In this document: positions 11,735 through 26,863 of the stretch, piece by piece | Layout: each line of letters starts with the position of its first letter | How positions within the stretch are numbered: position 1 is the first letter of the stretch | Virus record (IMG/VR): IMGVR_UViG_3300031616_000203 | Location: 1 to 41,788 of that record | DNA: 41,788 nucleotides | Origin: a virus | Direction: 5' to 3' (one strand) | The notes under the pieces: model-generated | Told to the model about the DNA's origin: nothing | Seen by the model: only the letters and a program-made list of their open reading frames with translations | The model's database searches: none | Position numbers and translations under genes: made by a program

Positions 11735-11831
11735 TTCGCGTACTCCGTCATGTAATTTGATGATGAGAGAAACCCTCTTGACAGTGCAAAAGTTCCTTGC
11801 TCCCGAAGTTGATGCAGCGAAAATAGGGTCT

Positions 11832-12665
11832 ATGAACACTAGAAAAGGTTCGGAGATAGAGGTCGAGGCTTCCGAGCCAGCGCCGAGGTGGGATGTGTCA
11901 CACCCGAATTCGCTGGAATCGAACGTCGATGACTTGCTGCGCAAGAGTTCGAACAACGCGCAGATGCTTGCGGCGATCCGCGAAGCCTTGGCTGTCAGGC
12001 TGGGTCAGCGGATCCGTGAAGCGCGCGGCATGACATCGCGCGGCTTGATGGCCGGCAACCTCGGTGTGCATGAAAACACCGTGGGCAAGATGGAGCGGGG
12101 GGAGACACTGCCCGACGCGGTGCAGCTGCAGCACATCGCCGCCATGACCGGGCGCTCTGTCGCATGGCTGCTTGGCATCGAGATGCCGGGCCTGGGTGGT
12201 GTGCCTCGCCAGCGAACGACTGAGGCCACGGAAGTCGGAGACCAGGTCTTCGTGCCGCTGTTCGACCTGCAGGTGTCGGCCGGCAACGGCTCTTTCAACG
12301 ACGAAGAAAGCGTGATCGACATGCGCGCATTCGCCGCCGACTACATCCGGCGCGACCTGCGCATCAGTCACGAACAGCTGGCGCTGGTGAACGTGGTGGG
12401 CAACAGCATGGAGCCCGAGATCCACTCCGGTGACGTCGTGTTGATCGATCGGCGCGACAAGGACATCAGCGTCGAGGGGCCGCACCTGGTGCGCATCGAC
12501 GGCTCGCTGCTCGTGAAGCTGGTGCAGCGCCGGCCGGGCGGTGTGCTGCGCGTCGCAAGCAAGAACGAGAGTTACACGCCGTTTGACATAAACGTCAATG
12601 CGGAACAACTGCAAGACTTCGAGGTGCTCGGCCGTGTGCGTTGGGCGGGAGTGACGTTCAGATGA
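11832..12665 (+). CDS. CI/LexA-type phage repressor with S24 peptidase domain
   Basis: 277 aa from ATG 11832. It keeps the lysogen by repressing the early promoter. Residues about 56-113 are an XRE helix-turn-helix (G-N-L-G-V-H-E-N-T-V-G-K-M-E-R-G-E). The C-terminal S24 peptidase domain has S192 (G-N-S-M-E-P) and K229 (L-L-V-K-L), with an Ala-Gly at 150-151 in the right place for RecA-stimulated self-cleavage, so SOS induction is likely. This differs from Mu, whose repressor is not of this type. In-frame TTG/ATG/ATG starts at 11757-11765 are possible. The stop overlaps the next start (ATGA). Confidence 0.92.
   Translation: MNTRKGSEIEVEASEPAPRWDVSHPNSLESNVDDLLRKSSNNAQMLAAIREALAVRLGQRIREARGMTSRGLMAGNLGVHENTVGKMERGETLPDAVQLQHIAAMTGRSVAWLLGIEMPGLGGVPRQRTTEATEVGDQVFVPLFDLQVSAGNGSFNDEESVIDMRAFAADYIRRDLRISHEQLALVNVVGNSMEPEIHSGDVVLIDRRDKDISVEGPHLVRIDGSLLVKLVQRRPGGVLRVASKNESYTPFDINVNAEQLQDFEVLGRVRWAGVTFR
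11835..11849 (+). promoter_or_regulatory. Operator-like repeat, copy 2
   Basis: AACACTAGAAAAGGT, immediately after the ATG at 11832, so it also encodes residues 2-6 of the longest sensible repressor. A regulator bound here would act as a roadblock to repressor transcription, i.e. autoregulation. Confidence 0.5.
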
Positions 12666-13135: not shown

Positions 13136-13191
13136 GGGTAGCGCCCGCCACCCTCCCTAGGTAATCCCATGCAGCGAACACTCGCTGCATG
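13136..13191 (+). promoter_or_regulatory. Late-promoter element, copy A (before the endolysin)
   Basis: GGGTAGC-N4-GCCACCC (one mismatch) plus TCCCT, then 10 unrelated bases, then ATGCAGCG-N6-CGCTGCAT whose right arm contains the endolysin ATG (13189). The same parts at identical offsets (0, 33, 42, 51) occur before the protease gene at 25677. The first dyad is centred about 43-44 bp before the ATG, the spacing known for Mor in Mu, and the conserved ACACT lies where a -10 box would be for a start at the ATG. No Shine-Dalgarno is present. Confidence 0.7.
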
Positions 13192-13761
13192 GCACCGCCA
13201 CCTTTCCCGACCAACCTCAAGCGCCCGATAGACCTGATCGTGGTGCACTGCTCGGCCACGCCGAGCGGCAAGGCGCTGGGCACGCCGGCTCGTTCCGCCG
13301 TCGGCGTCATCGACGACTGGCACCGTGAGCGCGGCTTCAAGCGCGAAGAGGCTGCACGCAACGCCTTCAACTGGCGGCTGCAGAGCGTGGGCTACCACTA
13401 CGTGATCGACCTGGGCGGCTACGTCTGGACGGGCCGCCACCTAAATGAGGTCGGCGCGCACGTCGCTGTCTTCAACGCCAAGAGCATCGGCATCTGCCTG
13501 GTCGGCGGTGCTGAGCTGGTCGGCCGCTTCACGCCGCCACAGTGGGATTCGCTTCGCCAGCTGGTGCGCCAGCTGCAGGCGGGCCTGTTTCGCCCATCGC
13601 TGCGCGTGGTGGGCCACCGCGACCTCTCGCCCGACACCGACGGCGACGGCCAGGTCGAACAGCGCGAGTGGCTCAAGACCTGTCCCGGCTTCGACGTGAG
13701 CGCCTGGCTCAAGCTCGACATGAAGCCGCTGCCCGTGAACGTGATCGAGGGAGCTCCGTGA
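13189..13761 (+). CDS. Endolysin, N-acetylmuramoyl-L-alanine amidase (Amidase_2)
   Basis: 190 aa. It cleaves the amide bond between MurNAc and the stem peptide at lysis. Zinc ligands of the T7-lysozyme family are visible: H20 (V-V-H-C-S-A-T-P), H143 (V-G-H-R-D-L-S-P) and C165 (K-T-C-P-G-F). There is no signal peptide, so it needs the holin. Between the last two ligands D149-T-D-G-D-G-Q-V-E-Q-R-E160 is a complete EF-hand calcium loop. First gene of the late operon, directly behind late-promoter copy A, whose right arm holds its start codon. Confidence 0.95.
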   Translation: MAPPPFPTNLKRPIDLIVVHCSATPSGKALGTPARSAVGVIDDWHRERGFKREEAARNAFNWRLQSVGYHYVIDLGGYVWTGRHLNEVGAHVAVFNAKSIGICLVGGAELVGRFTPPQWDSLRQLVRQLQAGLFRPSLRVVGHRDLSPDTDGDGQVEQREWLKTCPGFDVSAWLKLDMKPLPVNVIEGAP

Positions 13762-13982
13762 GCGACGTCACCACCGACTGCAAGCCGTGGTGGCAGAGCA
13801 AGACCATGTGGTTCAACGCCATGTGCCTGGCCGCCGCTGCGGCCGAGTCGCAGCTCAGCGTGCTCAAAGACGTGCTGCCCGGCGGCTTGTACACCTGGCT
13901 GGCCTTTGTGATGCCAGTGGGCAATGCGGCGCTGCGCTTCATCAGTGCGAGTGGCATCTCGGTGACGGGGGCCAAGTCGTGA
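13758..13982 (+). CDS. Holin candidate
   Basis: 74 aa with a GTG start that overlaps the endolysin stop (GTGA). Two hydrophobic segments, about 18-32 (W-F-N-A-M-C-L-A-A-A-A-A) and 44-62 (Y-T-W-L-A-F-V-M-P-V-G-N-A-A-L). Size, membrane helices and position between endolysin and spanins fit a holin that releases the endolysin. The family is not recognised from motif alone. Confidence 0.7.
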   Translation: MSDVTTDCKPWWQSKTMWFNAMCLAAAAAESQLSVLKDVLPGGLYTWLAFVMPVGNAALRFISASGISVTGAKS

Positions 13983-14539
13983 TGTGGCTCAAGAACCTCT
14001 GGTCGGCCGCCATCGGCTGGTCGACGGGCGCGCTCGGCTGGCTGGCGCTGGGCGTCGGCCTGATGGCCATCGGCGCCTACGCCGGCTATGACATCGCGGA
14101 CAACGCCTGCAAGGCCAGGCGCTTGAGCGCCATAGAGCAGCAGCACAAGGAATTCGTGCAAGCCGTGATCGATGGCGGCCTCGACGCGAAGGCGCTGCGC
14201 GATGAACTGGTCGCCGCCGAAAGCACCAACGCCCAGCTCAAAGAAAGGCTCAAGCATGTACCGACCATCGCCAGCGTGGCGCCCACGCCGGGTTGCCCTG
14301 TCTGTGACGCTCGCTTCACTGTGGGCGCTGTCGGCCTGTGGAACGACGCCCTCACTGGCGTGCCCACCAGTGCCTGCGGATCTGCTGGTGCCGCCGAAGA
14401 AGCCTGTGCTGCTGCCAGCACCGCCAGCGCCGACGACGCAGCAGCCAACCACGCCCAGAACGCAGCCGACTGTCGGGAAGACCGCACCCGCTACCAGCGG
14501 CTGATCGACCACATCACCAAGCGCGAGTCGCAGCGCTGA
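13982..14539 (+). CDS. Inner-membrane spanin (Rz-like)
   Basis: 185 aa. N-terminal membrane helix at about 10-38, then a periplasmic helical region (E-Q-Q-H-K-E-F-V-Q-A, A-L-R-D-E-L-V-A-A-E-S-T-N-A-Q-L-K-E-R-L) and a Cys- and Ala-rich C-terminus. With the nested Rz1-like lipoprotein it would span the periplasm and fuse inner and outer membranes in the last step of lysis. Starts one base before the end of the holin candidate gene. Confidence 0.85.
   Translation: MWLKNLWSAAIGWSTGALGWLALGVGLMAIGAYAGYDIADNACKARRLSAIEQQHKEFVQAVIDGGLDAKALRDELVAAESTNAQLKERLKHVPTIASVAPTPGCPVCDARFTVGAVGLWNDALTGVPTSACGSAGAAEEACAAASTASADDAAANHAQNAADCREDRTRYQRLIDHITKRESQR
14256..14504 (+). CDS. Outer-membrane spanin lipoprotein (Rz1-like), nested in Rz
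   Basis: 82 aa read in another frame entirely inside the Rz-like gene. An n-region with several Arg, a hydrophobic core and a lipobox L-S-A-C with Cys at 28 are followed by a proline-rich mature part (P-P-V-P-A-D-L-L-V-P-P-K-K-P), the Rz1 hallmark. GAAAGG lies 7 bases before the ATG at 14256. Anchors to the outer membrane and pairs with the inner-membrane spanin. Confidence 0.9.
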   Translation: MYRPSPAWRPRRVALSVTLASLWALSACGTTPSLACPPVPADLLVPPKKPVLLPAPPAPTTQQPTTPRTQPTVGKTAPATSG

Positions 14540-14564
14540 CCCACTTTTCAACGGAGAGATAACG

Positions 14565-15056
14565 ATGTTCCAAAGCAAGTTGAAGCGCCTGTCCACGAAT
14601 CTGCTGCTCGCCACAGTGCTCTGTTTCTCGGGCCTCGCCGCGCAAGCCGCGTCGATGACCGACTACCTCGAAACGGCGCTGATCAACCACGTCTTCCGAG
14701 GCACGGCCTACACCGCACCGAGCAACCTCTACATCTCGCTGCACACCGCGGCCTGCAGCGACTCGTCGACCGGCACCGAGGTCACCGGCGGCAGCTATGC
14801 ACGCGTGGCGGTGGCGGCCGGTACCGGCACCTGGGCGGCCACCAGCTCGGGCAACGGAACCACCAGCAACGTGAGCGTGATCACCTTCACCACGCCCACG
14901 GCCGGGTGGCTCACGGTCACGCACTTCGGCATCTTCGACGCGTCGACCAGCGGCAACCAGCTGGTGTGCGCCGCCCTGACCACGAGCAAGACCATCAACA
15001 GCGGCGACACGGTCACCTTCCCGGCCAGCTCGCTGACCTTCCAGATCGACAACTGA
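14565..15056 (+). CDS. Tail-fibre-type structural domain with a signal peptide
   Basis: 163 aa. The part from residue 31 (M-T-D-Y-L-E-T-A-L-I-N-H-V-F-R-G-T-A-Y) with L-Y-I-S-L-H-T-A and a Gly/Thr-rich beta-sandwich resembles a domain found in phage tail or virion proteins. Those usually start at the M-T-D-Y. Here 30 residues precede it with a basic n-region, hydrophobic core and A-Q-A-A-S cleavage site, a classical Sec signal. GGAGAG before the ATG at 14565 supports the long form; no ribosome site lies before the internal ATG at 14655. Export would be unusual for a virion part. Confidence 0.7.
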   Translation: MFQSKLKRLSTNLLLATVLCFSGLAAQAASMTDYLETALINHVFRGTAYTAPSNLYISLHTAACSDSSTGTEVTGGSYARVAVAAGTGTWAATSSGNGTTSNVSVITFTTPTAGWLTVTHFGIFDASTSGNQLVCAALTTSKTINSGDTVTFPASSLTFQIDN

Positions 15057-15059
15057 ACC

Positions 15060-15734
15060 ATGCGCAAGCTCTTCACCCTGGCGCTTGCATGCGCCGCTTC
15101 GCTTTTCTGCCACGCGGCATTGGCCGCCTGGCCGTGCATGACGGCCTCGCTCGGCAACGGCACCGGCAGCAAGGCCGTGTTCGTCTCCACCGACAAGGCC
15201 GTCGCCTTCGGCTGGGTGTGCCTGGTCGACAACGCGCCCACGGCATCGCACTGGATCCTGCTCGACAGCTACCGGCCCAAGCTCGGCGATTGCACGCCCT
15301 CCACCTCTGAAATGATGCGGGCGATCGAGGCCAGCCCCGACAGCCTGGCCGCGGCGAACGACGTGCTCTCCCGCTGCAGCTGGGTGCCGGCGGCCGGCAC
15401 CGCCGATGCCGCCGCATGGACCGAGGTGCGCGACAAGGTGCAGACGCTTGCGTTGTCGCAGTGGGCGATCGACCACCCGACGGCGGCCACCTCGCCGGCG
15501 CCGTCCTATGTCGTCAAGCCCAACGCTTCGTCGACCAAGGCGCTGCCCGACCGGCCGGCCTACAGCCTGGCCAACGGCGTGCGCGGCAGCAAGGAACTCG
15601 GCCGCGCCCTGGTGGGCCAGCCCTGCACCACGGCGCTGCCCACGCTCGCCAGCACCGGCACCGACCTGTGGGCCAGCTTCGGGCCCGCACCCACCGCGGG
15701 CGTCGTGGCGCTCTGCAACAAGAAGGAAAACTGA
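15060..15734 (+). CDS. Exported cysteine-rich protein of unknown function
   Basis: 224 aa. Signal peptide M-R-K-L-F-T-L-A-L-A-C-A-A-S-L-F-C-H-A-A-L-A with cleavage near residue 22. The mature part has six Cys (W-P-C, W-V-C, G-D-C, S-R-C, Q-P-C, L-C-N), suggesting three disulfides in the periplasm or outside the cell. It starts 3 bases after the preceding stop and overlaps the next gene by one base (TGATG), so the three genes form a unit. No family recognised. Confidence 0.65.
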   Translation: MRKLFTLALACAASLFCHAALAAWPCMTASLGNGTGSKAVFVSTDKAVAFGWVCLVDNAPTASHWILLDSYRPKLGDCTPSTSEMMRAIEASPDSLAAANDVLSRCSWVPAAGTADAAAWTEVRDKVQTLALSQWAIDHPTAATSPAPSYVVKPNASSTKALPDRPAYSLANGVRGSKELGRALVGQPCTTALPTLASTGTDLWASFGPAPTAGVVALCNKKEN

Positions 15735-16300
15735 TGTACCCGAACCCTTCCAGCTTCGTCCCCCTGGTCATCGGCTCCACCGATGGCCCGGCGCTCACCG
15801 CCGCCGCGGCGGCCAGCTGCCTCCCGGTGCCCAACCGGCTCGTGCTGCCGAACAACTACTGGTCGGTGGGCAAGCAGTGGCGGGTGATGCTGCGCGGCCG
15901 CATCTCCTGCGCGGTCACCACGCCGGGCACCGCGCGCTTCGATCTGCGCCTCGGGCCTTCGGGCACCATCGTCGCGTTCGACACCGGCGCGCTCAATCTC
16001 AACATCGTGGCCAAGACCAACGTGCCGTTCGAGCTTGAGGTCAACCTGGTCTGCCGCGCCATCGGCAACGCCACCCAGTCGAATCTCATGGGCATCGGCC
16101 GCTTCCAGAGCGAGGCCGTGATCGCATCGCCGCTCAACACCGTCGGCGGCAATGGCTCGCTGCTGGTCCCGGTGGGTGCGCCTGCCGTCGGCACCGGCTT
16201 CGACAACACGGCCGCCAACGCGGTCGACATGTTCTTCACGCAGACCGTGGCCACCGGCTCGATGACGGTGCACCAGTACGAGATCTGGGAAAGCATCTGA
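15734..16300 (+). CDS. Probable virion or fibre-associated protein, unknown
   Basis: 188 aa, M-Y-P-N-P-S-S-F-V-P-L start. Beta-rich throughout, with W-R-V-M-L-R-G-R-I-S-C and T-P-G-T-A-R-F-D-L-R-L-G strands, and a C-terminal M-T-V-H-Q-Y-E-I-W-E-S-I. The pattern suggests a jelly-roll-like structural protein, perhaps binding the surface of the virion. No specific family is recognised. Located between two exported proteins and the SGNH protein. Confidence 0.6.
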   Translation: MYPNPSSFVPLVIGSTDGPALTAAAAASCLPVPNRLVLPNNYWSVGKQWRVMLRGRISCAVTTPGTARFDLRLGPSGTIVAFDTGALNLNIVAKTNVPFELEVNLVCRAIGNATQSNLMGIGRFQSEAVIASPLNTVGGNGSLLVPVGAPAVGTGFDNTAANAVDMFFTQTVATGSMTVHQYEIWESI

Positions 16301-16301
16301 C

Positions 16302-18020
16302 ATGTCTTTCAGCCCCACGAGGCTCCGGCCCTTCGCGCAGTCCGGCTGGGGTGGCCGCGCGCAGTTCCGCAGCGCGGTCGCCGTCGGCTGGCCAGGTGCC
16401 GAGCTGCCGAGCGTCGACCCGCAGATCCTCGGCACCTCGCGCTGGGGCCAGCTCGGCACGGTGGTCTACCGCGCCGGTGTGGGGCTCAGCAGCTCGCTGG
16501 TCGGTGTCACGCGCGACAGCAATGGCGTTGCCGTCGGCAGCGTGCGCGTCGAGCTGTTCCTCACGGCCGGTGACCTGCCGCTGATGACGGCGGTGTCCGA
16601 CACAACGGGCAATTTCAACTTCAACAACCCCGGCACCGGGCCGTTCTACATCGTGGCCTACAAGGCCGGCAGCCCCGACCTGGCCGGCACCACCGTGAAC
16701 ACGCTGCGCGCCGGCGCCGCGGCCGACACGCCAACGCAGCCGCTGCGCTTCGCCAGCCCCACCAACTTCGTGCCGCAGGGCTTCAACACCTCGGATGCGG
16801 TGAAGCGCCACGTCATCTCGCGGCAGATCCACTACATCGGCTCGGGCGACATGTCCGAGCTGCGGCTCCTGCTGCTCGGCTGGGCCAATGGCGGCAGCGC
16901 GATCAGCACGCCCGGAAACGCCGTCACCTACGCGAACAGCTACATCTGCAAGGAGCTGGCAGCTTCGGGCATCAACGTGAAATTCGGCGGCTCTAACAGC
17001 GTCACCGTCTACGACGGCCAGCTGGCCGTCATCTCCGATCCGATCCTGCCGTCGCAATTCGGGCTGTCGAAGTTCACCCGCGGCGAGCGCTACGACGTCA
17101 CCATCGACTTGCCGTTCGCGGCCGGCGGCATCGCTTTCCCGCAGTACGACAACATGAACGGCGCTGGCAGCGGCCAGAGCTACGACTCCGGCTTCTTCGG
17201 CCTGATCTGCGACCCCGGCACCACCACTTACGACAACATCAACTCCTTCGGGTCCATCAATTGGACAGGCCCCGACGTGGGCGTGCTGGGCGGCCAGGTC
17301 GCCTGCATCCTGCTGGGCAAGTTCGTGAGCGGCGACCCCGGCACCTACCTCGGCATCGGCGACAGCATCGTCGCCGGCGTGGGCGCCACATCGGCGGCCG
17401 GCGAAGGCAAGGGCAGTTTCTTCACCCGCTCGCTGTTCCCTACCGAGGGCAGCCCGAGCCTCAACCCGGTGGCCGGCTGCAATGCCGGTTTCTCAGGCGG
17501 CATCTCGCAGGTGTGGCTCAACACCAGCAACGCGTCGCAGATGAACCTGGCTTCGCTCGCCAAATACGCCAACCGGGTGATCGAAGAGTACGGCATCAAC
17601 AGCATCGGCAGCGCCGGGGGGTCGGGTGCGGCCGCGGGCATCGTGGCCGACTGCGAGGCCATCTACAAGCTCGTACGCACCGCGGCGCCGGTCGCCAACG
17701 GCAGCGCCCTCAAGATCATGCGCACCTCGCTGCTGTGCAAGACCAACTTCCCCAGCACGACACCGAGCGCCGGCTGCGGCGTGGCCGACACCCTCGACTA
17801 TTTCAACCAGCAGATGCTGGCCGCAGCCGGTGCGGCGCCGGGGCCCGACTCGTTCGTCAGCGCGCGCGATGTGATCGTCTCCAGCACAACGCCCGCAACG
17901 ACTGCCAACTACCTCTGGGCCAGCGGCATGACCGACGACGGCGTGCACCCCAGCGAGGCCGGCCACGCCGCGCTGGCTGCTGCCGGCGGCGTGCGCGCCT
18001 GGGTCCTGGCCAACCTGTAG
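16302..18020 (+). CDS. Large virion-type protein with SGNH/GDSL hydrolase domain
   Basis: 572 aa. Residues about 64-140 look like a carboxypeptidase-regulatory-type beta sandwich (D-S-N-G-V-A-V-G-S-V-R-V-E-L-F, D-T-T-G-N-F-N-F). The C-terminal part has G-I-G-D-S355-I (block I Ser) and D546-G-V-H549-P-S-E-A-G-H-A (block V Asp-His), the catalytic layout of SGNH esterases. Such domains on phage fibres remove acetyl groups from surface polysaccharide. The Gly and Asn blocks are less clear. It probably acts on the host surface; the alternative is an inactive binding domain. Confidence 0.75.
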   Translation: MSFSPTRLRPFAQSGWGGRAQFRSAVAVGWPGAELPSVDPQILGTSRWGQLGTVVYRAGVGLSSSLVGVTRDSNGVAVGSVRVELFLTAGDLPLMTAVSDTTGNFNFNNPGTGPFYIVAYKAGSPDLAGTTVNTLRAGAAADTPTQPLRFASPTNFVPQGFNTSDAVKRHVISRQIHYIGSGDMSELRLLLLGWANGGSAISTPGNAVTYANSYICKELAASGINVKFGGSNSVTVYDGQLAVISDPILPSQFGLSKFTRGERYDVTIDLPFAAGGIAFPQYDNMNGAGSGQSYDSGFFGLICDPGTTTYDNINSFGSINWTGPDVGVLGGQVACILLGKFVSGDPGTYLGIGDSIVAGVGATSAAGEGKGSFFTRSLFPTEGSPSLNPVAGCNAGFSGGISQVWLNTSNASQMNLASLAKYANRVIEEYGINSIGSAGGSGAAAGIVADCEAIYKLVRTAAPVANGSALKIMRTSLLCKTNFPSTTPSAGCGVADTLDYFNQQMLAAAGAAPGPDSFVSARDVIVSSTTPATTANYLWASGMTDDGVHPSEAGHAALAAAGGVRAWVLANL

Positions 18021-18025
18021 CGCAC

Positions 18026-18979
18026 ATGTCGACCGACATCTACATGTACAGCACCATCGTGCCCGCCGGCAACGACGTGTGGCTGCGCGACCCGACCGTG
18101 CTCGCCTCGGCCGGCAGCCTGGCCGGTGCGGCCACGGCAACGGCCCAGGCCACAGGCAACGTGTCGCTCGGCCTGGTGTTCGCAGGTGCCGCACAAGGCA
18201 CCGCCACCGCCACCGGCGAGCTGCTCAAGGGTGTCAGCCTGGCGGCCGCTGCCGTCGGCGTGGCCTCTGCCAGTGCCGGGCTGGCCAAGTCGGTCGCCCT
18301 GCAGGGCACGGCGACGGGCGTGGTCTCGTCGACGGGCGGGCTTGCACTGAGCATCGTGCTGAGCGGCCAGGCCGTTGCCGATGCGGTTGCGTCCGGCGCG
18401 CTGTCGACCAGCGGCAGTGCAGACCTTGCCGGCACCGCGCAGGCGCAGGCCTCGGCGGCCGGCGGGCTCGCGGTCGGCAAGCCACTGGCCGGTGCCGGCC
18501 AGGGCCAGGCGACGGCAACGGTCTCGCTGAGCCTGGCCGTCAACCTCTCGGCCGCCGCGCTGGCTCAAGCCGCCGCCGCCGGCGCGCTCGACGTGCAGGC
18601 CGGCGGCTCCGGCGTCAGCCTGGTCGGCGCGGCCGTGGGGCAGGCTGCGGCCGGCGCCACACTGCTGCTCGCCGTGCCGCTTGGCGCTGCTGCCTTGGCC
18701 CAGGCCCAGGCCGGCGGTGCGCTCACGCTCAACGTGCCCCTGTCGGGCGCTGCCATTGCCCAGGCCGCGGCCACTGCCGGCCTGTCGGTCGTGCGGGCGC
18801 TGGCAGGCACGGCGCAAGGGCAGGCCGACGCCAGCGGTGCGCTGCAGCTCTCGGTGCGCATGGCGGGCGCAGCCGGCGGGTCTGCCTTTGCCGGCGGCGC
18901 GCTGCGCGTCGAGCCCTTGATCACGAGCAAAGGCGCGGCGGTGCCGAGCCTGCGGCGCAAGTTCGAGGTGCGCGCATGA
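18026..18979 (+). CDS. Ala/Gly-rich protein built of thirteen ~20-residue repeats
   Basis: 317 aa. After about 31 unique residues, thirteen tandem units run from 32 to 297. Nine or ten are exactly 20 residues, with consensus L-x-G-A-A-x-A-x-A-x-A-x-G-x-L-x-L-x-V, and two are longer (22 and 25). A 20-residue tail ends V-P-S-L-R-R-K-F-E-V-R-A. The period and small residues fit a beta-solenoid or fibrous rod. The stop overlaps the next start (ATGA). No family recognised; a virion fibre or spacer is the best guess. Confidence 0.7.
   Translation: MSTDIYMYSTIVPAGNDVWLRDPTVLASAGSLAGAATATAQATGNVSLGLVFAGAAQGTATATGELLKGVSLAAAAVGVASASAGLAKSVALQGTATGVVSSTGGLALSIVLSGQAVADAVASGALSTSGSADLAGTAQAQASAAGGLAVGKPLAGAGQGQATATVSLSLAVNLSAAALAQAAAAGALDVQAGGSGVSLVGAAVGQAAAGATLLLAVPLGAAALAQAQAGGALTLNVPLSGAAIAQAAATAGLSVVRALAGTAQGQADASGALQLSVRMAGAAGGSAFAGGALRVEPLITSKGAAVPSLRRKFEVRA
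18119..18916 (+). repeat. Degenerate 60-bp tandem repeats in coding sequence
   Basis: Thirteen units of about 60 bp encoding the 20-residue motif. They are diverged at the DNA level, but the motif (ctg-N-ggc-gcN-gcN start of each unit) keeps the frame. Two units carry short in-frame insertions (6 and 15 bp). Confidence 0.75.
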
Positions 18980-19281
18980 CCAAGCTGCCGCCCAAAGACC
19001 CGGCCGAACGCAAGCTTGCCCGCTTCATCTTCACCGCCGACTTGTCGTCGGGCGAGACCGTGGTCTCGGCGGCCGTGGCGATCGAGCTGCTCGACGGCAC
19101 CGATGCCGTGCCCGGCCTGGTGCTTGACGGCGCGCCGCTCGTCGACAGCGCGACGAATGACGTGCTGCAGTGGCTCACCGGCGGCGTGCGCGATGCCGAC
19201 TACGGCCTGCGCTGCCTGGCCACCGCCAGCGGCGGCGCCGTGCACCTGGCCAGCGCGAGGTTGCCTGTGAGGCGCATGTGA
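18976..19281 (+). CDS. Small protein closing the structural cassette
   Basis: 101 aa. K-L-A-R-F-I-F-T-A-D-L-S-S-G-E-T-V, then A-V-A-I-E-L-L-D-G-T-D-A and D-Y-G-L-R-C-L-A-T-A-S-G-G: a single beta-sandwich of the kind seen in small phage structural proteins. Overlaps the repeat protein by 4 bases (ATGA), so the two are probably made together. Function unknown. Confidence 0.65.
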   Translation: MTKLPPKDPAERKLARFIFTADLSSGETVVSAAVAIELLDGTDAVPGLVLDGAPLVDSATNDVLQWLTGGVRDADYGLRCLATASGGAVHLASARLPVRRM

Positions 19282-19503
19282 ATGGACGTTTTTGACCGAG
19301 CGCAAGAAGCGGAGCTGTCGGCCTGGCGGCGCTTGAACGAAGCGCCGACGGTGCAGGTGGAAAGAAGGGGCCGGCCGCCGAGCCGGTGCGAATGCGGCGG
19401 CGAGATCGAGCCGGCCAGGCGCAAGGCGTTGCCGGGTGTGCGCACCTGCATCGAGTGCGCGCTGGCATTGGAGCGTGGGAATCGAACCTTGAAGAGGAAG
19501 TAA
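19282..19503 (+). CDS. TraR/DksA-like zinc-finger protein
   Basis: 73 aa. C36-x-C38-G-G-E-I and T-C56-I-E-C59 form a DksA/TraR-type C4 finger after a short helix. Full DksA binds the RNA polymerase secondary channel with a long coiled coil; this version is very short, as in many Mu- and P2-like phages. It may tune host transcription for late expression. Stands just before the terminase block and its TAA directly precedes the next ATG. Confidence 0.85.
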   Translation: MDVFDRAQEAELSAWRRLNEAPTVQVERRGRPPSRCECGGEIEPARRKALPGVRTCIECALALERGNRTLKRK

Positions 19504-19851
19504 ATGCAGATTCAGCTGGAGTTGTGGCACCTGATATCGCTGGCCGTCACGGTCATCGGCGCCTATGCGGCGATCGCCAAGATGCTCATGTCGCAGGTGA
19601 CCAAGGGCATCGACGACAAGTTCGGCCTGGTCACCAAGCTCATCGAGAGCCTGTCGCAGCAGGGCGAGAAATACGGAGCCGATGTGCTGCGACTGGAGCG
19701 CGAGCTGGCGGCGCTGCGCCTGGAGATGATGCGCGACTTCACGCGCCGCGAAGACCACAACCAGGCAATCGCCAGCATCCGCGTCGGGCTCGACAACATG
19801 AGCCTGCGCATCGAGAAAGCACTGAGCATCGGAGGGCGCATCAATGGATGA
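19504..19851 (+). CDS. DUF2730-type membrane/coiled-coil protein (Mu gp25-like)
   Basis: 115 aa. One N-terminal membrane helix (about 7-25, L-W-H-L-I-S-L-A-V-T-V-I-G-A-Y) and a coiled-coil region with R-L-E-R-E-L-A-A-L-R. Mu-like phages have such a protein before the small terminase. Role not established. Overlaps the next gene by 8 bases. Confidence 0.75.
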   Translation: MQIQLELWHLISLAVTVIGAYAAIAKMLMSQVTKGIDDKFGLVTKLIESLSQQGEKYGADVLRLERELAALRLEMMRDFTRREDHNQAIASIRVGLDNMSLRIEKALSIGGRING

Positions 19852-20167
19852 CATCAATTTCGAGGTGGCCAAGAAAGAGCGCCGTGAGCGCATTCGGTGG
19901 TTCATCCTGCGCGCACTCGATGTGTCGCGCCCCGACGGCAGCCACCTGCCCACCGTCGTCGACGTGATCCGCACCGTGTACCGCGATGCCACCGACCTGG
20001 AAGTGAAGCGCGAGCTGGACTACCTGGCCGAGCGCGACCTGTTGGAGCTTAAGGTCGACTCGATCGGCGGCTGGTACGCCAAGCTCGAGCGCTACGGCGT
20101 CGACGTGGTGGAGTACGCGGTCGATTGCGAGCCGGGCATTGCGCGGCCAAAGTTCGGGCACAACTGA
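19844..20167 (+). CDS. Mu gp26-like winged-helix protein
   Basis: 107 aa. R-W-F-I-L-R-A-L-D-V-S-R-P, then V-V-D-V-I-R-T-V-Y and L-D-Y-L-A-E-R-D-L-L-E-L resemble a winged helix, like the short proteins of the VpaChn25_0724 type encoded between gp25 and the small terminase. It could help DNA packaging. One base separates its stop from the next start. Confidence 0.75.
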   Translation: MDDINFEVAKKERRERIRWFILRALDVSRPDGSHLPTVVDVIRTVYRDATDLEVKRELDYLAERDLLELKVDSIGGWYAKLERYGVDVVEYAVDCEPGIARPKFGHN

Positions 20168-20168
20168 C

Positions 20169-20702
20169 ATGCCGCCGCGCAGCAAGGTCGAAACCCTGCC
20201 CAAGGCAGCGAAGGAATGGCTCGACCACGCGCTGGTCGAGGGCAACTTCGCGGGGTACGAGCTGCTCGCCGCCGAGCTGGCCAAGCGCGGGTGCACGGTC
20301 AGCAAGAGCGCGCTGCACCGCTACGGCAGCAAGTTCGAAGAGCGCATCAGCCAGCTGCGCATGGCCACCGAACAAGCCAAGGCCGTGGTGGCCGCGAGCC
20401 CCGACGACGCCGGCGACATGACCGAGGCGCTCATGCGCCTGGTGCAGCAGAAGGTGTTCAACGTGCTGGTGGAGTGCGAGATCGACCCGGAGAAGGTCGA
20501 CCTCGGCAAGCTCACCATGCAGGTGGCGCGCCTGGCGCGGGCCACGGTGCCGCTGAAGAAGTACGCGGCCGAGGCGCGCGACAAGCTGCGGCGCGTGCTC
20601 GATGAAGTGCAGAGCGTTGCAGAAGGCGACAAGGAAGCATCGGCGCTCGCGTTGATCAAGCAGATCCGCGAGAAAGGCTATGGCATCTTCGATGACGCAT
20701 GA
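20169..20702 (+). CDS. Small terminase-like protein, DUF3486 (Mu gp27)
   Basis: 177 aa. P-R-S-K-V-E-T-L-P-K-A-A-K-E-W-L at the N-terminus and the HTH K-R-G-C-T-V-S-K-S-A-L-H-R-Y-G are the DUF3486 signature. It is the DNA-recognition subunit expected to select phage ends for headful packaging of Mu-type DNA. The helical C-terminus would form the ring. Overlaps the large subunit. Confidence 0.9.
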   Translation: MPPRSKVETLPKAAKEWLDHALVEGNFAGYELLAAELAKRGCTVSKSALHRYGSKFEERISQLRMATEQAKAVVAASPDDAGDMTEALMRLVQQKVFNVLVECEIDPEKVDLGKLTMQVARLARATVPLKKYAAEARDKLRRVLDEVQSVAEGDKEASALALIKQIREKGYGIFDDA

Positions 20703-22017
20703 GCCGGCCATCAACCTCCTGCAGACGCAGAAGGACTACCTGAAGGATGACAGCCGCTTTAAGGCGGGCATGTTCACACGGCAGGGCGGCAAGACCTTCG
20801 TCGGCACGCTGGAGGTGGTCGACCAGACCTTCGAGGCCGAGGCACGCTCGCGGCGTTCGCCGTGGGTCATCCTGAGCCGCAGCCAGCGGCAATCCGAGAT
20901 CGCGATGCGCGAGGGCGTGCACCGGCACCTCGCGGCGTATGGCGTGGCGCTGAAGACGCTGGGTCAGGAAGAGGTCGAGTTCTACGACGAAGACAAGATC
21001 AAGCGCAAGGCGTTCGAGCTGATCTTCCCCGGCGGCAACTTCATCGCTGCGGTGCCTGCCAGCCCCGACACCGTGCGGGGCTACTCGGCCAACATGCTGT
21101 TCGATGAGTTCGCCATTCAAAAGGCCGCGCGAGAGATCTGGAAGGCCGCTTACCCCATCATCACCCGTGGCTTCAAGGCGCGCGTGATCTCTTCGCCCAA
21201 GGGCATCGGCAACAAGTTCCACGAGATCATGACGGACACGAGCGGCACCTGGTCGCGCCACGTCATGGACATCTACCAGGCGATCGCGCAGGGCGCTCCG
21301 CTCAACGCAGCTGAGCTGAAAGCCGGCTTGAATGACGAAGACGCTTGGGCTCAGGAGTACGAGCTGCAATGGCTCGACGAAGCGAGCGCCTGGCTGAGCT
21401 ACGACCTGATCAACAGCGTGGAGAACGACCACGCCGGCATCCCCGGCAACTACCAGGGTGGGCCATGCTACGTAGGCGTCGACATCGCCCGGCGCAGTGA
21501 CAACTTCGTGATCTGGGTCGATGAGCTGATCGGCGACGTGGCCTGGACGCGCGAGGTCATCGTGAAGAAGCGCATCAGCTTCGCCGAGCAAGACGCCCTG
21601 CAGGACGACGTGGAGCAGCGCTACAAGGTGATGCGCTACTGCATGGACCAGACCGGCATGGGTGAGAAGCCGGTCGAAGACGCCAAGCGCCGCTATGGCC
21701 AGCACCGGGTGGAAGGCGTGCTCTTCACCGGCCCGAACAAGCTGCAGCTGGCAACGCTCATCAAGCAAAGCTTCGAAGACCGCAAGAGCCGCATTCCGTT
21801 CGGTGACGCCAAGCTGCGCTCCGACATGCATGCGGTGAAGAAGATCGACAGCCCGACCGGCGCACCACGCTTCGATGCCGACAGCGACTCCAACGGCCAC
21901 GCCGACCGCTTCTGGGGCAAAGCCCTGGCCTGCCTGGCCGCGCACGGCGCCAGCGGCCCCGTGCACGTGGCCAGCGCCGGCACGCGCCAGGCCCAATCCA
22001 TCACCGAGGGCTACTGA
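20680..22017 (+). CDS. Large terminase (Mu gp28-like)
   Basis: 445 aa. The packaging motor: Walker A R34-Q-G-G-K-T39, Walker B M-L-F-D142-E143, a coupling-type S-S-P-K-G after it, and an RNase H-like nuclease with D268 (G-V-D-I-A) and D409 (G-H-A-D-R-F) at the usual ends. The ATG at 20680 has GAGAAAGG close upstream; an ATG at 20692 is also possible. It starts inside the small-terminase gene, so the two subunits are co-translated. Confidence 0.93.
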   Translation: MASSMTHEPAINLLQTQKDYLKDDSRFKAGMFTRQGGKTFVGTLEVVDQTFEAEARSRRSPWVILSRSQRQSEIAMREGVHRHLAAYGVALKTLGQEEVEFYDEDKIKRKAFELIFPGGNFIAAVPASPDTVRGYSANMLFDEFAIQKAAREIWKAAYPIITRGFKARVISSPKGIGNKFHEIMTDTSGTWSRHVMDIYQAIAQGAPLNAAELKAGLNDEDAWAQEYELQWLDEASAWLSYDLINSVENDHAGIPGNYQGGPCYVGVDIARRSDNFVIWVDELIGDVAWTREVIVKKRISFAEQDALQDDVEQRYKVMRYCMDQTGMGEKPVEDAKRRYGQHRVEGVLFTGPNKLQLATLIKQSFEDRKSRIPFGDAKLRSDMHAVKKIDSPTGAPRFDADSDSNGHADRFWGKALACLAAHGASGPVHVASAGTRQAQSITEGY

Positions 22018-22019
22018 CA

Positions 22020-23540
22020 ATGAACCGCGGCATCTGGCTCAACGACAACCAGTTCCACCACTTCGCCGAAGACCAGCCGCGCGACATGACGACGCACATC
22101 GCCTCGCGCGCCAGGTCGGGCGACTTCAGCAGCATCTTCGGTCTGTTGCCCAACCCGGACACAGTGCTGCGCAAGATGGGCAAGCAGATCGACGTGTACC
22201 GCGAGCTGGCCAGCGATGCGCACGTGAAGGGTTGCCTGCGCCGCCGGCGTGGCGCGGTGAAGGCGATGGAGCGCGGCTTCGAGCGCGGCCAGGCCAAAGG
22301 CCGCGTGGCGAAGAACCTCGAGGCGATCTTTGCCGACCTGCCGATGCAGCAGATCATCGAGGCGGCCTGCTCCGGCGCCGACTACGGCTATCAGCCGTTC
22401 GAAGTGCTATGGAGCACAGGCCCCGGCCTGAAGGCGCCGACCGAGATCGTGGCCAAGCCGCCCGAGTGGTTCGGCTTCGACAACGACAACAAGCTGCGCT
22501 TCAAGAGCCGCGGCAACCAGATCTCGGGCGAAGAGCTGCCGCCGATGCGCTTCATCCTGGCGCGCAACAACGCGAGCTACATCAACCCCTACGGCGAGGC
22601 CGATCTCGCGAGCGTGTTCTGGCCCACCACCTTCAAGCGCGGCGGCCTGAAGTTCTGGGTCACCTTCACCGAAAAGTACGGCATGCCCTGGGCCGTGGGC
22701 AAGCAGCCGCGCACCGCCACCAAGGCCGAAGCCGAGTCACTCGCAGTCGACCTCGACCGGATGGTGCGCGACGCGGTGGCCGTGATCCCCGACGACAGCT
22801 CGGTGGAGCTGCTCACCGTGGCCACGAGCGCCAACGCCGAGATGTTCGAGAAGCTGCTGCACTTCTGCCGCAGCGAGACGAGCATCGCGCTGCTGGGCAA
22901 CAACCAGAGCATCGAGGCCACCGCCAACCTGGCCAGCAGCCAGGCCGCCCAAGCGGTGGAGGCGGATCTGCGCGACGCGATGTCGGAAATGGTCTGCGAG
23001 GCCATCAACCAGCTGGTGAGCTGGGTGGTGCACGTGAACTGGGGCGAAGGCACGGTGGCACCGCGCTACGAGCTGTGGGAGCAGGAAGAGGTCGACGACA
23101 AGCTGGCCAAGCGTGACGAGACGCTCACCAAGGCCGGTGCCAAGTTCACCAACCAGTACTTCACCGACGCCTATGGGCTGAACGAAGGCGACCTGGCCGA
23201 ACAGCAGCCCGAGCCCGCGCCGGGCGCCGCGCTGCCCGCTGCGAAGCCTGGCAAGCCCGGCCAGCCGGTGGAGTTTGCCGAGGGCGACCTCCCTGCCGAC
23301 CAGGCTGGGCTGGATGCCGCCATCGAGCAGCTGCCGGCCGAGGCGCTCAACCAGGCCATGCTCACGCTGCTGCAGCCGGCGCTCGACGCGATCGCCTCGG
23401 CCGAGACGGCCGAGGGTGTGCGCCAGGCGCTGCTCGACGCCTACCCGAAGATGGATTCAAGCCGGCTTGAAGCGCTGATGCACCAGGCGTTTTTCGTGGC
23501 CGACGTGTGGGGGTCCGGAAATGCCGCCGCCGAAAGTTAG
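22020..23540 (+). CDS. Portal protein, DUF935 (Mu gp29)
   Basis: 506 aa. Typical portal blocks: K-Q-I-D-V-Y-R-E-L-A-S-D-A-H-V-K-G-C-L-R-R-R, the A-D-Y-G-Y-Q-P-F-E-V-L-W region, P-P-M-R-F-I-L-A-R-N-N, and the long helical part with S-I-A-L-L-G-N-N-Q-S. It forms the dodecamer through which DNA enters. The C-terminus is Ala/Pro-rich, then a short helical domain. Starts two bases after the terminase stop. Confidence 0.93.
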   Translation: MNRGIWLNDNQFHHFAEDQPRDMTTHIASRARSGDFSSIFGLLPNPDTVLRKMGKQIDVYRELASDAHVKGCLRRRRGAVKAMERGFERGQAKGRVAKNLEAIFADLPMQQIIEAACSGADYGYQPFEVLWSTGPGLKAPTEIVAKPPEWFGFDNDNKLRFKSRGNQISGEELPPMRFILARNNASYINPYGEADLASVFWPTTFKRGGLKFWVTFTEKYGMPWAVGKQPRTATKAEAESLAVDLDRMVRDAVAVIPDDSSVELLTVATSANAEMFEKLLHFCRSETSIALLGNNQSIEATANLASSQAAQAVEADLRDAMSEMVCEAINQLVSWVVHVNWGEGTVAPRYELWEQEEVDDKLAKRDETLTKAGAKFTNQYFTDAYGLNEGDLAEQQPEPAPGAALPAAKPGKPGQPVEFAEGDLPADQAGLDAAIEQLPAEALNQAMLTLLQPALDAIASAETAEGVRQALLDAYPKMDSSRLEALMHQAFFVADVWGSGNAAAES

Positions 23541-23660
23541 TGAGCGCTTCAGGAAAACAGGGGTTTTGAGCCGTTGGGGCAATTTCGGCTACTACCCCCG
23601 CGGGCACCTGACGATCGCGTTTTTTAAATGGGGCATTAATTTGATCTGGAGGCATTCCCG
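23541..23660 (+). other. Non-coding spacer before a small gene
   Basis: Unlike its tightly packed neighbours this stretch has no coding potential. It contains the hairpin AAAAC-AGGG-GTTTT (about 23554-23567), a GGGGC/CTACTACCCCC pair and an AT-rich patch (GTTTTTTAAATGGGGCATTAATTTG). An internal promoter or processing site is possible, but no clear -35/-10 pair is seen. Confidence 0.35.
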
Positions 23661-23771
23661 ATGCCCAGGCTCCCCCCTTTTTGCCGAATCCCCGCAAAAG
23701 GAGCAAATGGCGTGCCGAACCGGCCCCGACTCCGGGTCGCGGCCGAACAGGTGCACCTGGTTGGGGGTTGA
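23661..23771 (+). CDS. 36-aa small protein with a strong ribosome site
   Basis: M-P-R-L-P-P-F-C-R-I-P-A-K-G-A-N-G then V-P-N-R-P-R-L-R-V-A-A-E-Q-V-H-L-V-G-G. CTGGAGG stands 8 bases before the ATG, one of the best Shine-Dalgarno sites in the late region, and the stop lies 6 bases before the gp30 start, so it may couple to it. The stretch also has open frames in both other phases and a C6T5 run followed by a TTTTGC/GCAAAA stem. Basic, Pro/Arg-rich, no known family. Confidence 0.55.
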   Translation: MPRLPPFCRIPAKGANGVPNRPRLRVAAEQVHLVGG

Positions 23772-23777
23772 GCCCAC

Positions 23778-25100
23778 ATGAACGGCACCGACCTGGCCTT
23801 CGCCATCGGCCTGCCTCCAGAAAAGGCCATCGAGCACCTGGCCGCCAAGGGGCTGAAGGTCAGCGGCGGCTGGCGCACCGTTGACGAAGCGACGCACGCG
23901 CGGGCCTTCACGGTGGCCAACGTGACGAAGCTCGACGTGCTGGCCGACATCCAGGCCGAGCTGGCGCGTGCGCAGAAGGACGGGCTGACGATGCAGCAGT
24001 TCCGCGCCAACATCATTCCGGCGCTCACCCGCAAAGGGTGGTTCGCCCCGTCGGGTGCCCCCGTTCATGTGCCCGATGGCACGCCACCCGACCCCAAGAC
24101 CGGCGAGCTGGCCACGCAGAAGCGGCTGACCGCCCGCCGGCTCAAGACCATCTTCCAGACCAACATGCAGAGCAGCATGATGGCCGGCCGCTACCGCGAG
24201 CTGATGGCCAATGCCGACAAGCGGCCGTTCTTTCAATATGTGGCGGTGCTCGATGGCCGCACGCGGCCGGCGCACCGCGCGCTCAACGGGCGGGTGTTTC
24301 GTGCCGACGATGCGGCGTGGGGCAGCATCTGGCCGCCGAACGGCTGGGGCTGCCGCTGCCGCGTGCGCGCGCTGGATGCCGCCGACATGGCCGACAAGGG
24401 CCTGAAGGTTGAGAGCAGCCAGGGCCACCTGAAGACCAGCAGCGTGCCGCTGCCCGACGGCAGCACGAGCACCATCACGCGCTACACGCCGGTGGGCGGC
24501 ACGACCTTCAGCACCGACCCGGGCTTCAACGGCAACCCGGCGCAAGTGCAGGCCGCCGACCGGCTGGCAGTGCTGCGCGCGCCGCAGGTGCTGCCGGCCC
24601 CCGCGGCCGACCAGGCGCTGCGCCAGCTGTTCACCAACCCGACCCGCACGGCCGAGCTGCAGACCTTTGCGCAGACGGCGCGCGAAGTCGCCAAGCCGAC
24701 CGGCGCGCGCCTGGGTGTCGGCGAGCTGGACGAAGCGGCCGTGCTGCACCTGGTGGACGAGGGCGTGAGCTTCGACCCGACGCAGCCGATCACGTTGGGT
24801 GGCGATTTGGTGCGTGAGTCGCCCGACATCACGCCTGAGCAGTGGGCCGCGGTGCCGGAAGTGCTTGCCTACGGAACCATCGGCTGGGACAAGCGCATCA
24901 GCGCGTTGTATTACGTACGCACACCCGATGCCCTGTGGCGCGAGGGCGACATGCGCGTGGTCGTGAAGGCCACCAACGAAGGCAACCGAGTGGACTCGGT
25001 AGAGGTCGTGGGTGGTCCGGCCGTTGTGCCGGCGTTCGAGCGCGTGCGTGGGCCGGGCCGCAGCCCGACTGACAGATTGAATCGGGCCAGTCGCAGATGA
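23778..25100 (+). CDS. Minor head protein, F/SPP1 gp7 family (Mu gp30)
   Basis: 440 aa. The N-terminal two thirds carry the head-morphogenesis domain: R-L-K-T-I-F-Q-T-N-M-Q-S, the D-G-R-T-R-P-A-H-R-A-L-N-G block and W-P-P-N-G-W-G-C-R-C-R. The last ~130 residues form an extra domain (W-D-K-R-I-S-A-L-Y-Y-V, V-V-V-K-A-T-N-E-G-N-R-V-D-S-V). It recalls the RelE/barnase-like nuclease tails found on some gp7 proteins. Binds the portal and enters the capsid with DNA. Overlaps the next gene by 4 bases. Confidence 0.88.
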   Translation: MNGTDLAFAIGLPPEKAIEHLAAKGLKVSGGWRTVDEATHARAFTVANVTKLDVLADIQAELARAQKDGLTMQQFRANIIPALTRKGWFAPSGAPVHVPDGTPPDPKTGELATQKRLTARRLKTIFQTNMQSSMMAGRYRELMANADKRPFFQYVAVLDGRTRPAHRALNGRVFRADDAAWGSIWPPNGWGCRCRVRALDAADMADKGLKVESSQGHLKTSSVPLPDGSTSTITRYTPVGGTTFSTDPGFNGNPAQVQAADRLAVLRAPQVLPAPAADQALRQLFTNPTRTAELQTFAQTAREVAKPTGARLGVGELDEAAVLHLVDEGVSFDPTQPITLGGDLVRESPDITPEQWAAVPEVLAYGTIGWDKRISALYYVRTPDALWREGDMRVVVKATNEGNRVDSVEVVGGPAVVPAFERVRGPGRSPTDRLNRASRR

Positions 25101-25663
25101 CCGACAAGCTCATCAACGTCGACATCAACACCGCCGAGATCTCGGCGGTGTTCGGCCAGATCCAGCGGCGCATGGGTGGCAAGCCTGCGCTGATGCGCGA
25201 GGTGGCCGGCATCATGTTCGATGAAGTCGAAGAGAACTTCGCGGCGCAGGGCCGGCCGCGCTGGCTCGACATCAAGAGCGTGAACCTGGCGCGTGCCGGC
25301 TACACGCGAGACAAGAAGGGCCGCTGGGCTTACCGCAAGCGCAACAGCCGGCCGAGCTATCAGATCCTGCAAGACTCCGGGCGCCTGGCCAGCTCCATCA
25401 CGCAGAGCTTCGACGCCAGCCATGCCAGCGTCGGCACGAACGTGGTGTACGCCGCGATCCACCAGTTCGGCGGCCGCACCAAGGCGCATGTGATCCGCGC
25501 GAAGAACGCGAGGGCGCTGGCCACGCCCTATGGTCCGCGCAAGAGCGTGAACCACCCAGGCAGCGTGATCCCGGCGCGGCCGTTCCTCACCATCAGCCCC
25601 TCGGGCGAGGGCAAGATCCTGCGCGCCGGCGAGACGTTCCTGCGCGGCGTGATCGGCGCGTAA
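25097..25663 (+). CDS. Virion morphogenesis protein gpG-like (phage tail completion S family)
   Basis: 188 aa. V-A-G-I-M-F-D-E-V-E-E-N-F-A-A-Q-G-R-P-R-W, L-Q-D-S-G-R-L-A-S-S-I and I-H-Q-F-G-G followed by P-A-R-P-F-L are the signature of Mu gpG and P2 gpS, which complete the head-tail joint. ATGA overlap with gp30. It is the last gene before late-promoter copy B. Confidence 0.92.
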   Translation: MTDKLINVDINTAEISAVFGQIQRRMGGKPALMREVAGIMFDEVEENFAAQGRPRWLDIKSVNLARAGYTRDKKGRWAYRKRNSRPSYQILQDSGRLASSITQSFDASHASVGTNVVYAAIHQFGGRTKAHVIRAKNARALATPYGPRKSVNHPGSVIPARPFLTISPSGEGKILRAGETFLRGVIGA

Positions 25664-25676
25664 AACCGCGCTGTTT

Positions 25677-25732
25677 GGGTAGCGCCGGCTACCCTCCCTC
25701 GCGCTGGTGATGCTGCCGACACTGGCAGCATG
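25677..25732 (+). promoter_or_regulatory. Late-promoter element, copy B (before the protease)
   Basis: GGGTAGC-GCCG-GCTACCC is a perfect 7-bp dyad, followed by TCCCT. After 10 unrelated bases comes ATGCTGCC-N6-GGCAGCAT, a perfect 8-bp dyad with the protease ATG (25730) in the right arm. All parts have the same offsets as copy A at 13136. The arms of the second dyad differ between copies yet remain complementary, while the loop ACACT is constant. Corresponds in position to Mu promoter PI. Confidence 0.7.
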
Positions 25733-26863
25733 CCGAAGCAGACCCTCCACATCTTTCGCGCCGGTCGCCAAACGACTGCGGCGGGCGATGAGATCGAGTT
25801 CAGTGCCGCCGACCTGGAGGCCTGTGCCAAAGCCTACGACCCGGCGCTGCACACCGCACCGATCTGCGTGGGCCACCCGAAGACAAACGCGCCGGCCTAC
25901 GGCGTGATCAAGGGCCTGCAGGTATCCAAGGGCGACCTGGTTGCGGAGCACGATCATGTAGAACCTCAATTCGCCGAGCTGGTGCGGCAGAAGCGCTTCA
26001 TCAGCGTGTCGGCCGCGTTCTATCCGCCGAACGCCAAGGCCAACCCGGTGCCGGGCGTGTACTACCTGCGCCACGTGGGCTTCCTCGGCGCCGAGCCGCC
26101 TGCCTTGAAAGGCCTGCGCCCGCCCGAGTTCGCAGAAGCCGAAGAAGACGACTTCATCGCCTTCGCCGAGATCGAGTTCAGCGACCCGGCCTTCGGCTAC
26201 CTGGCGCGCATGTTCCGCGGGCTGCGCGACCACTTCATCGAGACGCTCGGCCTGGAGAAGGCCGACCAGGTGCTGCCCGACTGGAACATCGCGTCGATCG
26301 AAGAGCTGGGCCGCGAGCGCGACAACCCCGCCATCACCGATTCACTCGGCACCGCATTCCGCGAAGCCAACCCCACCCACAAGCAGGAGCCTGCCGACAT
26401 GGAACCCACCCCCCGCGAGAAAGAGCTGCAGGCGCAGCTCGACACCGCCAACGCCACGATCACGGCCGACAAGAAGGCCAAGGCCAAGGCCGCCAGCGAC
26501 CAGCGCGTCGCCGAGGCCACCGAGTTCGCCGAAAGCCTGATCACCGCCAACCAGCTGCTGCCTCGAGACAAGGCCCTCGTGGTCAGCGTGCTCGATGCGC
26601 TCGGCGGCGACGCGCCGGTGGAGTTCGGCGAAGGCGACGACAAGAAGCCCGCGGCCACCGCGCTGCGCGAGCTGCTGCAGAAGCTGCCGAAGCACGCGCT
26701 GAACGGCAAGCACCTGGCCGTCAAGGGCGCCACCGGCACCGACCTCACCGACCCGCATGCCATCGCGGCCGCGGCCGTCGAGTTCCAGGAAGCGCAGTCC
26801 GCCAAGGGCATCACCGTCTCGACCGCTGAAGCGGTGGCGACGGTCTCGGCCTCGCAAGGCTGA
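25730..26863 (+). CDS. Prohead protease/scaffold (Mu gpI-like)
   Basis: 377 aa. The N-terminal ~220 residues hold the protease (H-I-F-R-A-G-R-Q, C-A-K-A-Y-D-P, A-P-I-C-V-G-H-P, and F-I-S-V-S-A-A-F-Y-P with a serine-protease-like S-V-S-A). H in G-H-P and S in S-V-S are the likely catalytic pair. The rest is the Ala/Lys/Glu-rich scaffold. It cuts head proteins during maturation. No Shine-Dalgarno precedes the ATG, which lies in the late-promoter dyad. Confidence 0.9.
   Translation: MPKQTLHIFRAGRQTTAAGDEIEFSAADLEACAKAYDPALHTAPICVGHPKTNAPAYGVIKGLQVSKGDLVAEHDHVEPQFAELVRQKRFISVSAAFYPPNAKANPVPGVYYLRHVGFLGAEPPALKGLRPPEFAEAEEDDFIAFAEIEFSDPAFGYLARMFRGLRDHFIETLGLEKADQVLPDWNIASIEELGRERDNPAITDSLGTAFREANPTHKQEPADMEPTPREKELQAQLDTANATITADKKAKAKAASDQRVAEATEFAESLITANQLLPRDKALVVSVLDALGGDAPVEFGEGDDKKPAATALRELLQKLPKHALNGKHLAVKGATGTDLTDPHAIAAAAVEFQEAQSAKGITVSTAEAVATVSASQG
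26399..26863 (+). CDS. Internal-start scaffold protein (Mu gpZ-like)
   Basis: 154 aa, same frame as the protease, starting at its residue 224 (M-E-P-T-P-R-E-K-E-L-Q). AGGAG lies 8 bases before this ATG, a good internal ribosome site, and the start is exactly at the junction between protease and coiled-coil scaffold. In Mu, gene Z makes free scaffold in this way inside I. Confidence 0.75.
   Translation: MEPTPREKELQAQLDTANATITADKKAKAKAASDQRVAEATEFAESLITANQLLPRDKALVVSVLDALGGDAPVEFGEGDDKKPAATALRELLQKLPKHALNGKHLAVKGATGTDLTDPHAIAAAAVEFQEAQSAKGITVSTAEAVATVSASQG

Follow-up and report, generated by a model that had tools for sequence, protein, structure and literature searches.

We observed that the endolysin gene (lys) and the head maturation protease gene (gene I) of a Mu-like phage are each preceded by the same two-dyad element, in which the second dyad flanks a predicted -10 hexamer and reaches the start codon. 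We favour, with moderate confidence, the reading that both elements are late promoters lying within an RNA hairpin: translation of RNA reading through from upstream would be blocked, while the activated transcript, starting inside the hairpin, would be translatable. The window (the whole stretch of DNA analysed, 41,788 nt) encodes a Mu-type transposase and gp36, gp37, sheath and gpP-like proteins, and megablast found no close phage for it. Between the lysis gene and the terminase, at window 16302-18020, lies the gene of a 572-aa protein with a GDSL-lipase domain.

The two copies of the element have identical offsets. As described in an earlier note on this DNA, which placed them at 13136 and 25677, the arms of their second dyads are unlike but paired, and no Shine-Dalgarno sequence is seen before lys or gene I, both of which start with ATG. 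The 23-bp block GGGTAGCGCCNGCNACCCTCCCT has exactly 2 occurrences in the window; in shuffled sequence 0.01 would be expected with up to 3 mismatches, and none of 100 shuffles gave two. A looser scan of the window for GGGTAG-N6-CTACCC (up to 3 mismatches) gave nothing above chance and no extra copy, for example before the tail genes. When viral contigs were searched for the exact DNA pattern, the window element did not turn up again, because dyad 1 differs between phages.

The centre of dyad 1 lies 44.5 bp before the A of the ATG in both copies. The -10 hexamers (AACACT and GACACT) are weak, but A2 and T6 are present; a scan for sigma-70 two-hexamer promoters found none at either element, and there is no -35. 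At lys the stem of dyad 2 extends to 11 bp (CCATGCAGCGA/TCGCTGCATGG). Only 0.065% (lys) and 0.26% (gene I) of random 13-mers from the window pair equally well with the start regions, and at both elements the left arm is wholly upstream of the predicted +1. In the predicted fold of the read-through RNA, the lys start codon has an unpaired probability of about 0.001, and that of gene I 0.03-0.63 depending on the base. The coordinates are given in the table.

Features of the window and, in the last three rows, of related phages (locus:position)
Feature	Position	Strand	Remarks
Endolysin (amidase), lys	13189..13761	+	phrog_822, E 1.3e-45; predicted leaderless
Head maturation protease, gene I	25730..26863	+	phrog_976, E 5e-106; predicted leaderless
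Mor-family transcription activator with HTH	1319..1816	-	PF08765, E 1.5e-10; PF13384
S24/HTH repressor gene	11757..12665	+	PF00717, PF01381
Dyad 1 of Plys	13136..13153	+	GGGTAG-CGCCCG-CCACCC, one A/C mismatch; candidate Mor-family activator site
Dyad 1 of PI	25677..25694	+	GGGTAG-CGCCGG-CTACCC, perfect
Dyad 2 at lys	13169-13190	+	ATGCAGCG-AACACT-CGCTGCAT
Left arm of lys dyad 2, CCATGCAGCGA	13167..13177 (core 13169-13176)	+	upstream of predicted +1
Predicted -10 of Plys, AACACT, in loop	13177..13182	+	dyad 1 spacing, A2 and T6, 7 nt before ATG
Right arm of lys dyad 2, TCGCTGCATGG	13182..13192	+	includes start codon; predicted +1 = 13189
Dyad 2 at gene I	25710-25731	+	ATGCTGCC-GACACT-GGCAGCAT
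Left arm of gene I dyad 2, ATGCTGCC	25710..25717	+	upstream of predicted +1
Predicted -10 of PI, GACACT = dyad 2 loop	25718..25723	+	comparison with promoters of relatives
Right arm of gene I dyad 2, GGCAGCAT	25724..25731	+	holds first two bases of start codon; predicted +1 = 25730
B3 and KS10 protease starts	L060:8962-8992; L068:8899-8956		GenBank start versus ATG at predicted +1
Pseudomonas lysis-side stems	L101:2356, L114:2477, L126:2371, L132:2344, L134:2306 and others		
CGCGCG tract records	L010, L063, L073, L079, L094, L142, L163, L176, L177, L178, L263, L265, L273		

Protease relatives were collected from viral contigs, genomes and phage records, giving a comparison set without BcepMu and phiE255. 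After removal of near-duplicates this comprised 146 upstream regions, and a promoter could be called in 138 of them. Each call combined a dyad with the best -10 some 37 bp downstream of the dyad centre, and was blind to the start codon; the nearest in-frame start was then taken as the start codon. The earlier note had read the elements as promoters with a dyad at about -44, (A/G)ACACT as -10 and +1 at the ATG, yielding leaderless mRNA, and the diverged gene I promoters support this reading: the predicted +1 fell at 0 or -1 of the start codon in 63 of the 138, against 2.9 of 116 shuffled regions and 34 of 1247 random ATGs at the same loci (2.5-2.7%). Dyads were also in excess at the place of dyad 1 across the relatives.

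This leaderless class could be compared with a leadered class of 52 regions, in which the predicted +1 lies 15-38 nt upstream. A Shine-Dalgarno sequence was found in 4/63 of the former and 23/52 of the latter, and an ATG start in 58/63 and 39/52, respectively. Rare Shine-Dalgarno sequences and a near-constant ATG are independent features, and both fit leaderless messages. The prediction of leaderless late mRNA from gene I promoters of this type is thus well supported by sequence. For B3 and KS10, GenBank places the protease start 30 and 57 nt, respectively, upstream of the ATG that coincides with the predicted +1; these annotations are probably too early.

The sequence of dyad 1 is specific to each phage, yet it is repeated at other late genes of the same phage, as is expected for the site of a phage-specific activator. 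A Mor-family gene was present in 30 of the 35 records searched; the five records lacking one were three virus fragments of 9-17 kb and two draft genomes. The single Mor-family protein found in the window is the putative activator of both promoters. In RcapMu and Rhizobium RR1-B, the palindromes ahead of gene I had been considered as terminators, but were dropped as such since they are exact repeats of sequences at other late genes, that is, dyad 1. A rule that gene I is preceded by either a terminator or a hairpin was given up along with them. The terminator-like palindromes at L063:471 (RcapMu) and at L069:1435 and 15976 (RR1-B) are better read as activator sites.

For the second dyad, the earlier note had proposed a search of relatives for the pattern together with a test of arm covariation; both were carried out on gene I. 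Arms of the leaderless class lie on either side of the -10 and adjoin or take in the start codon; they are diverse yet paired (GCCGCC/GGCGGC, GCCGTTC/GAACGGC, GGCCGC/GCGGCC, TGCCGGCC/GGCCGGCA and ATACCGCC/GGCGGTAT). The pairing energy of a left arm with its own right arm averaged -11.6 kcal/mol, against -8.7 for swapped arms (z -9.3, although kinship makes z overstate independence). In the leadered class, the partner of the Shine-Dalgarno or start region lies in bases around the -10 and discriminator (z -7.4, likewise from related sequences, so that independence is overstated). When the starts of other ORFs in these phages were put through the same own-versus-swapped test, z was about 0. On this comparison the second dyad is a real pairing, although it is weak or absent at some leaderless promoters, including most of the tail ones.

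The earlier note had taken the perfect pairing of unlike arms to argue for selection on the dyad itself. The pairing holds, but pairing alone would also be compatible with a homodimeric protein site. A dyad around a -10 often serves as an operator, and dyad 2 could play this role for a homodimeric repressor that covers the -10 and silences lys and I in the lysogen; the symmetric arms of such a site would change jointly, and each phage might have its own repressor. A homodimeric site is disfavoured, however, because dyad 2 differs between lys and gene I within one phage while dyad 1 is common to both. In the leadered class, moreover, the loops are long and variable, and the arms are bound to the start region. 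We regard the operator as the least probable of the explanations considered here.

The position of the arms in the leadered class also bears on the level at which the dyad acts. There, no more than about 4 nt separate the end of the right arm from the start codon, which the arm follows (sd 4.0) more closely than it follows +1 (sd 5.5). The left arm spans the -10 and discriminator, with loops of up to about 20 nt. In the leaderless class the stems tend to continue through the ATG, with a T opposite the A in 17/40 against a background of 19%. Among 78 distinct arm pairs under unbiased scoring, 23 G-T and 10 A-C mismatches were counted (random pairing gives 14% and 13%), and this excess of G-T favours action in the sense RNA. 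With loosely defined stems, an earlier count had shown no clear preference for either strand; stricter counting gave 26 to 12 with close relatives included, but no more than 15 to 11 for the distinct set.

These features can be set against the possibility that the promoters are simply leaderless and Mor-dependent, with dyad 2 acting in the DNA, either as an extruded hairpin that presents the -10 in its loop or as a symmetric clamp that affects melting. In the leaderless class the loop is indeed the -10 hexamer, Pseudomonas lysis-side promoters (Plys) keep a 9-bp stem around GATCAT mostly without a gene start, and sense and antisense duplex energies showed no separation. A cruciform, however, would need neither the long leadered loops with the left arm over the -10 and discriminator nor a right arm that tracks the start, and the G-T excess and the stems running through the ATG also point away from DNA. 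We therefore consider action in DNA unlikely. Quite improbable, in our view, is a form of it in which the activator drives extrusion of the hairpin at the late promoter and any RNA effect is secondary, which would make these elements a host-polymerase counterpart of hairpin promoters. Action at the RNA level is favoured by the G-T excess and the context of the stems.

The Pseudomonas Plys promoters deserve a separate description. Their perfect 9-bp stems around the -10 are CACGCCGCC/GGCGGCGTG or CACACCGCC/GGCGGTGTG, a compensatory change, and mostly no gene starts at +1. In one of them, L101, the stem surrounds GATGAT and is followed by the terminator-like tail TGTTTTTT. This tail suits the idea that the hairpins mainly stop or pause incoming transcription, as promoter-embedded terminators, and do not act on translation. 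We find this very improbable as a general explanation, as the window elements and nearly all others lack a T-run after the stem (neither window copy qualifies as an intrinsic terminator) and the stems align with the start codon or Shine-Dalgarno sequence. A terminator T-run of the L101 type would serve the same insulating end as the translation-blocking hairpin that we favour. Of 51 late promoters other than PI, 15 have a CGCGCG tract in the 24 bp upstream of the -10, against a background of 1.2% and 10/138 at PI; in a few promoters it could act as a left arm.

We propose that a Mor/C-family activator would bind dyad 1 (centre at about -44) and recruit the host RNA polymerase to the -10 hexamer without a -35. 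Transcription would then start at the A of the ATG, giving, as the comparative sequences suggest, a leaderless mRNA. As dyad 2 flanks the -10, its left arm would lie upstream of +1, mostly so in the leadered class, and the full hairpin would form only in RNA entering from upstream. Such read-through RNA, for example the repressor message running into lys, would carry both arms and fold so that the start is untranslatable, whereas the activated late transcript would lack the left arm and be translatable. The earlier note had offered the leaderless promoter and the start-hiding RNA hairpin as alternatives; the wider comparison suggests that they act jointly.

Transcription of the repressor gene and of one more ORF runs toward lys. 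The analysis detected no plus-strand terminator between the repressor gene and lys, nor one before gene I, so that a lysogen may well make read-through RNA into lys. Without a Shine-Dalgarno sequence, translation of this RNA might be low even in the absence of a hairpin. In D3112 an anti-CRISPR gene lies between G and the protease gene (L230:9928-10575), and its transcription could run into gene I. Cutting the RNA at the predicted start raised the predicted exposure of the start codon from 0.44 to 0.73, a gain only modestly larger than that of control ordinary starts cut at the ATG (from 0.51 to 0.73). In the leadered class, a wider search interval placed 79% of left-arm pairs upstream of +1, against 72% in swapped controls, a difference that is weak alone. 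A result that left arms end at +1 had been partly imposed by the interval chosen.

We also evaluated Mu itself. The earlier note had called the elements candidate Mor-dependent late promoters on the model of Mu; the dyad at about -43.5 stands, but the Mu late promoters respond to C, and it is Pm that Mor activates (PMC4287176). At Pm the Mor dyad lies at -43.5, with a -10 and no -35 (PMC4287176). Published Mu promoter oligonucleotides were built to end 20 nt past the mapped starts (PMC4461284), which places the +1 of Plys just after TAGACT-GCCATC. Bases from about -9 to +2 of Mu Plys pair with the lys start region, and at PI ACTGCTC pairs with GAGCAG before the start of I. Random Mu 11-mers pair as well in 0.44% of cases for Plys (with a pairing window one base off the mapped start) and in 0.64% for PI, and nearly all of the left arm is upstream of the mapped +1. 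These pairings, which were spotted by inspection and then scored, and hence not blind, are suggestive of hairpins like those of the window. In the papers searched we found no description of the Mu discriminator pairing with the lys and I start regions. The hairpin has apparently been overlooked in Mu, where it can be tested directly thanks to mapped starts and genetics.

Taken together, these comparisons suggest one rule for the start of late transcription in a very large and common group of phages, with leaderless messages predicted for about half of gene I promoters. They also suggest how a prophage could let transcripts enter its endolysin gene without making endolysin. In the literature searched, which covered few subscription papers, neither leaderless late mRNA nor hairpins embedded in promoters turned up for Mu-like phages.

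Among known systems, the Mu promoters Pm (activated by Mor) and Plys, PI, PP and Pmom (activated by C) share with the present elements a dyad at about -43.5, a -10 without a -35 and an encoded Mor/C-family protein, and Mu has late promoters at the same two genes, lys and I. The Mu messages carry leaders, however, whereas the predicted +1 in the window is on the ATG. Leaderless bacterial mRNAs (PMC4633059) have the 5' end at the AUG and no Shine-Dalgarno sequence, as predicted for the window, although here such messages are predicted for activator-dependent phage late genes. Translation of a late mRNA in the Mu family is also controlled at the RNA level in com/mom (PMC6483171), where the Com protein activates the mom mRNA; our model needs no protein. 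A close likeness to the proposed hairpin is found in the unrelated phage T4, in which genes e, soc, 49 and I-TevI have translation-initiation hairpins that the late RNA escapes, and lysozyme synthesis from the longer RNA is 100-fold lower (PMC3014915). Gene e also encodes a lysis enzyme, its start region is folded in the longer RNA, and its late promoter lies within the 5' arm so that late RNA escapes, the last two of which are predicted for the window. T4 uses its own late sigma, whereas the window would have host-type promoters with a Mor/C activator, and the present elements differ further from T4 in that their messages would mostly be leaderless, with the -10 in the loop.
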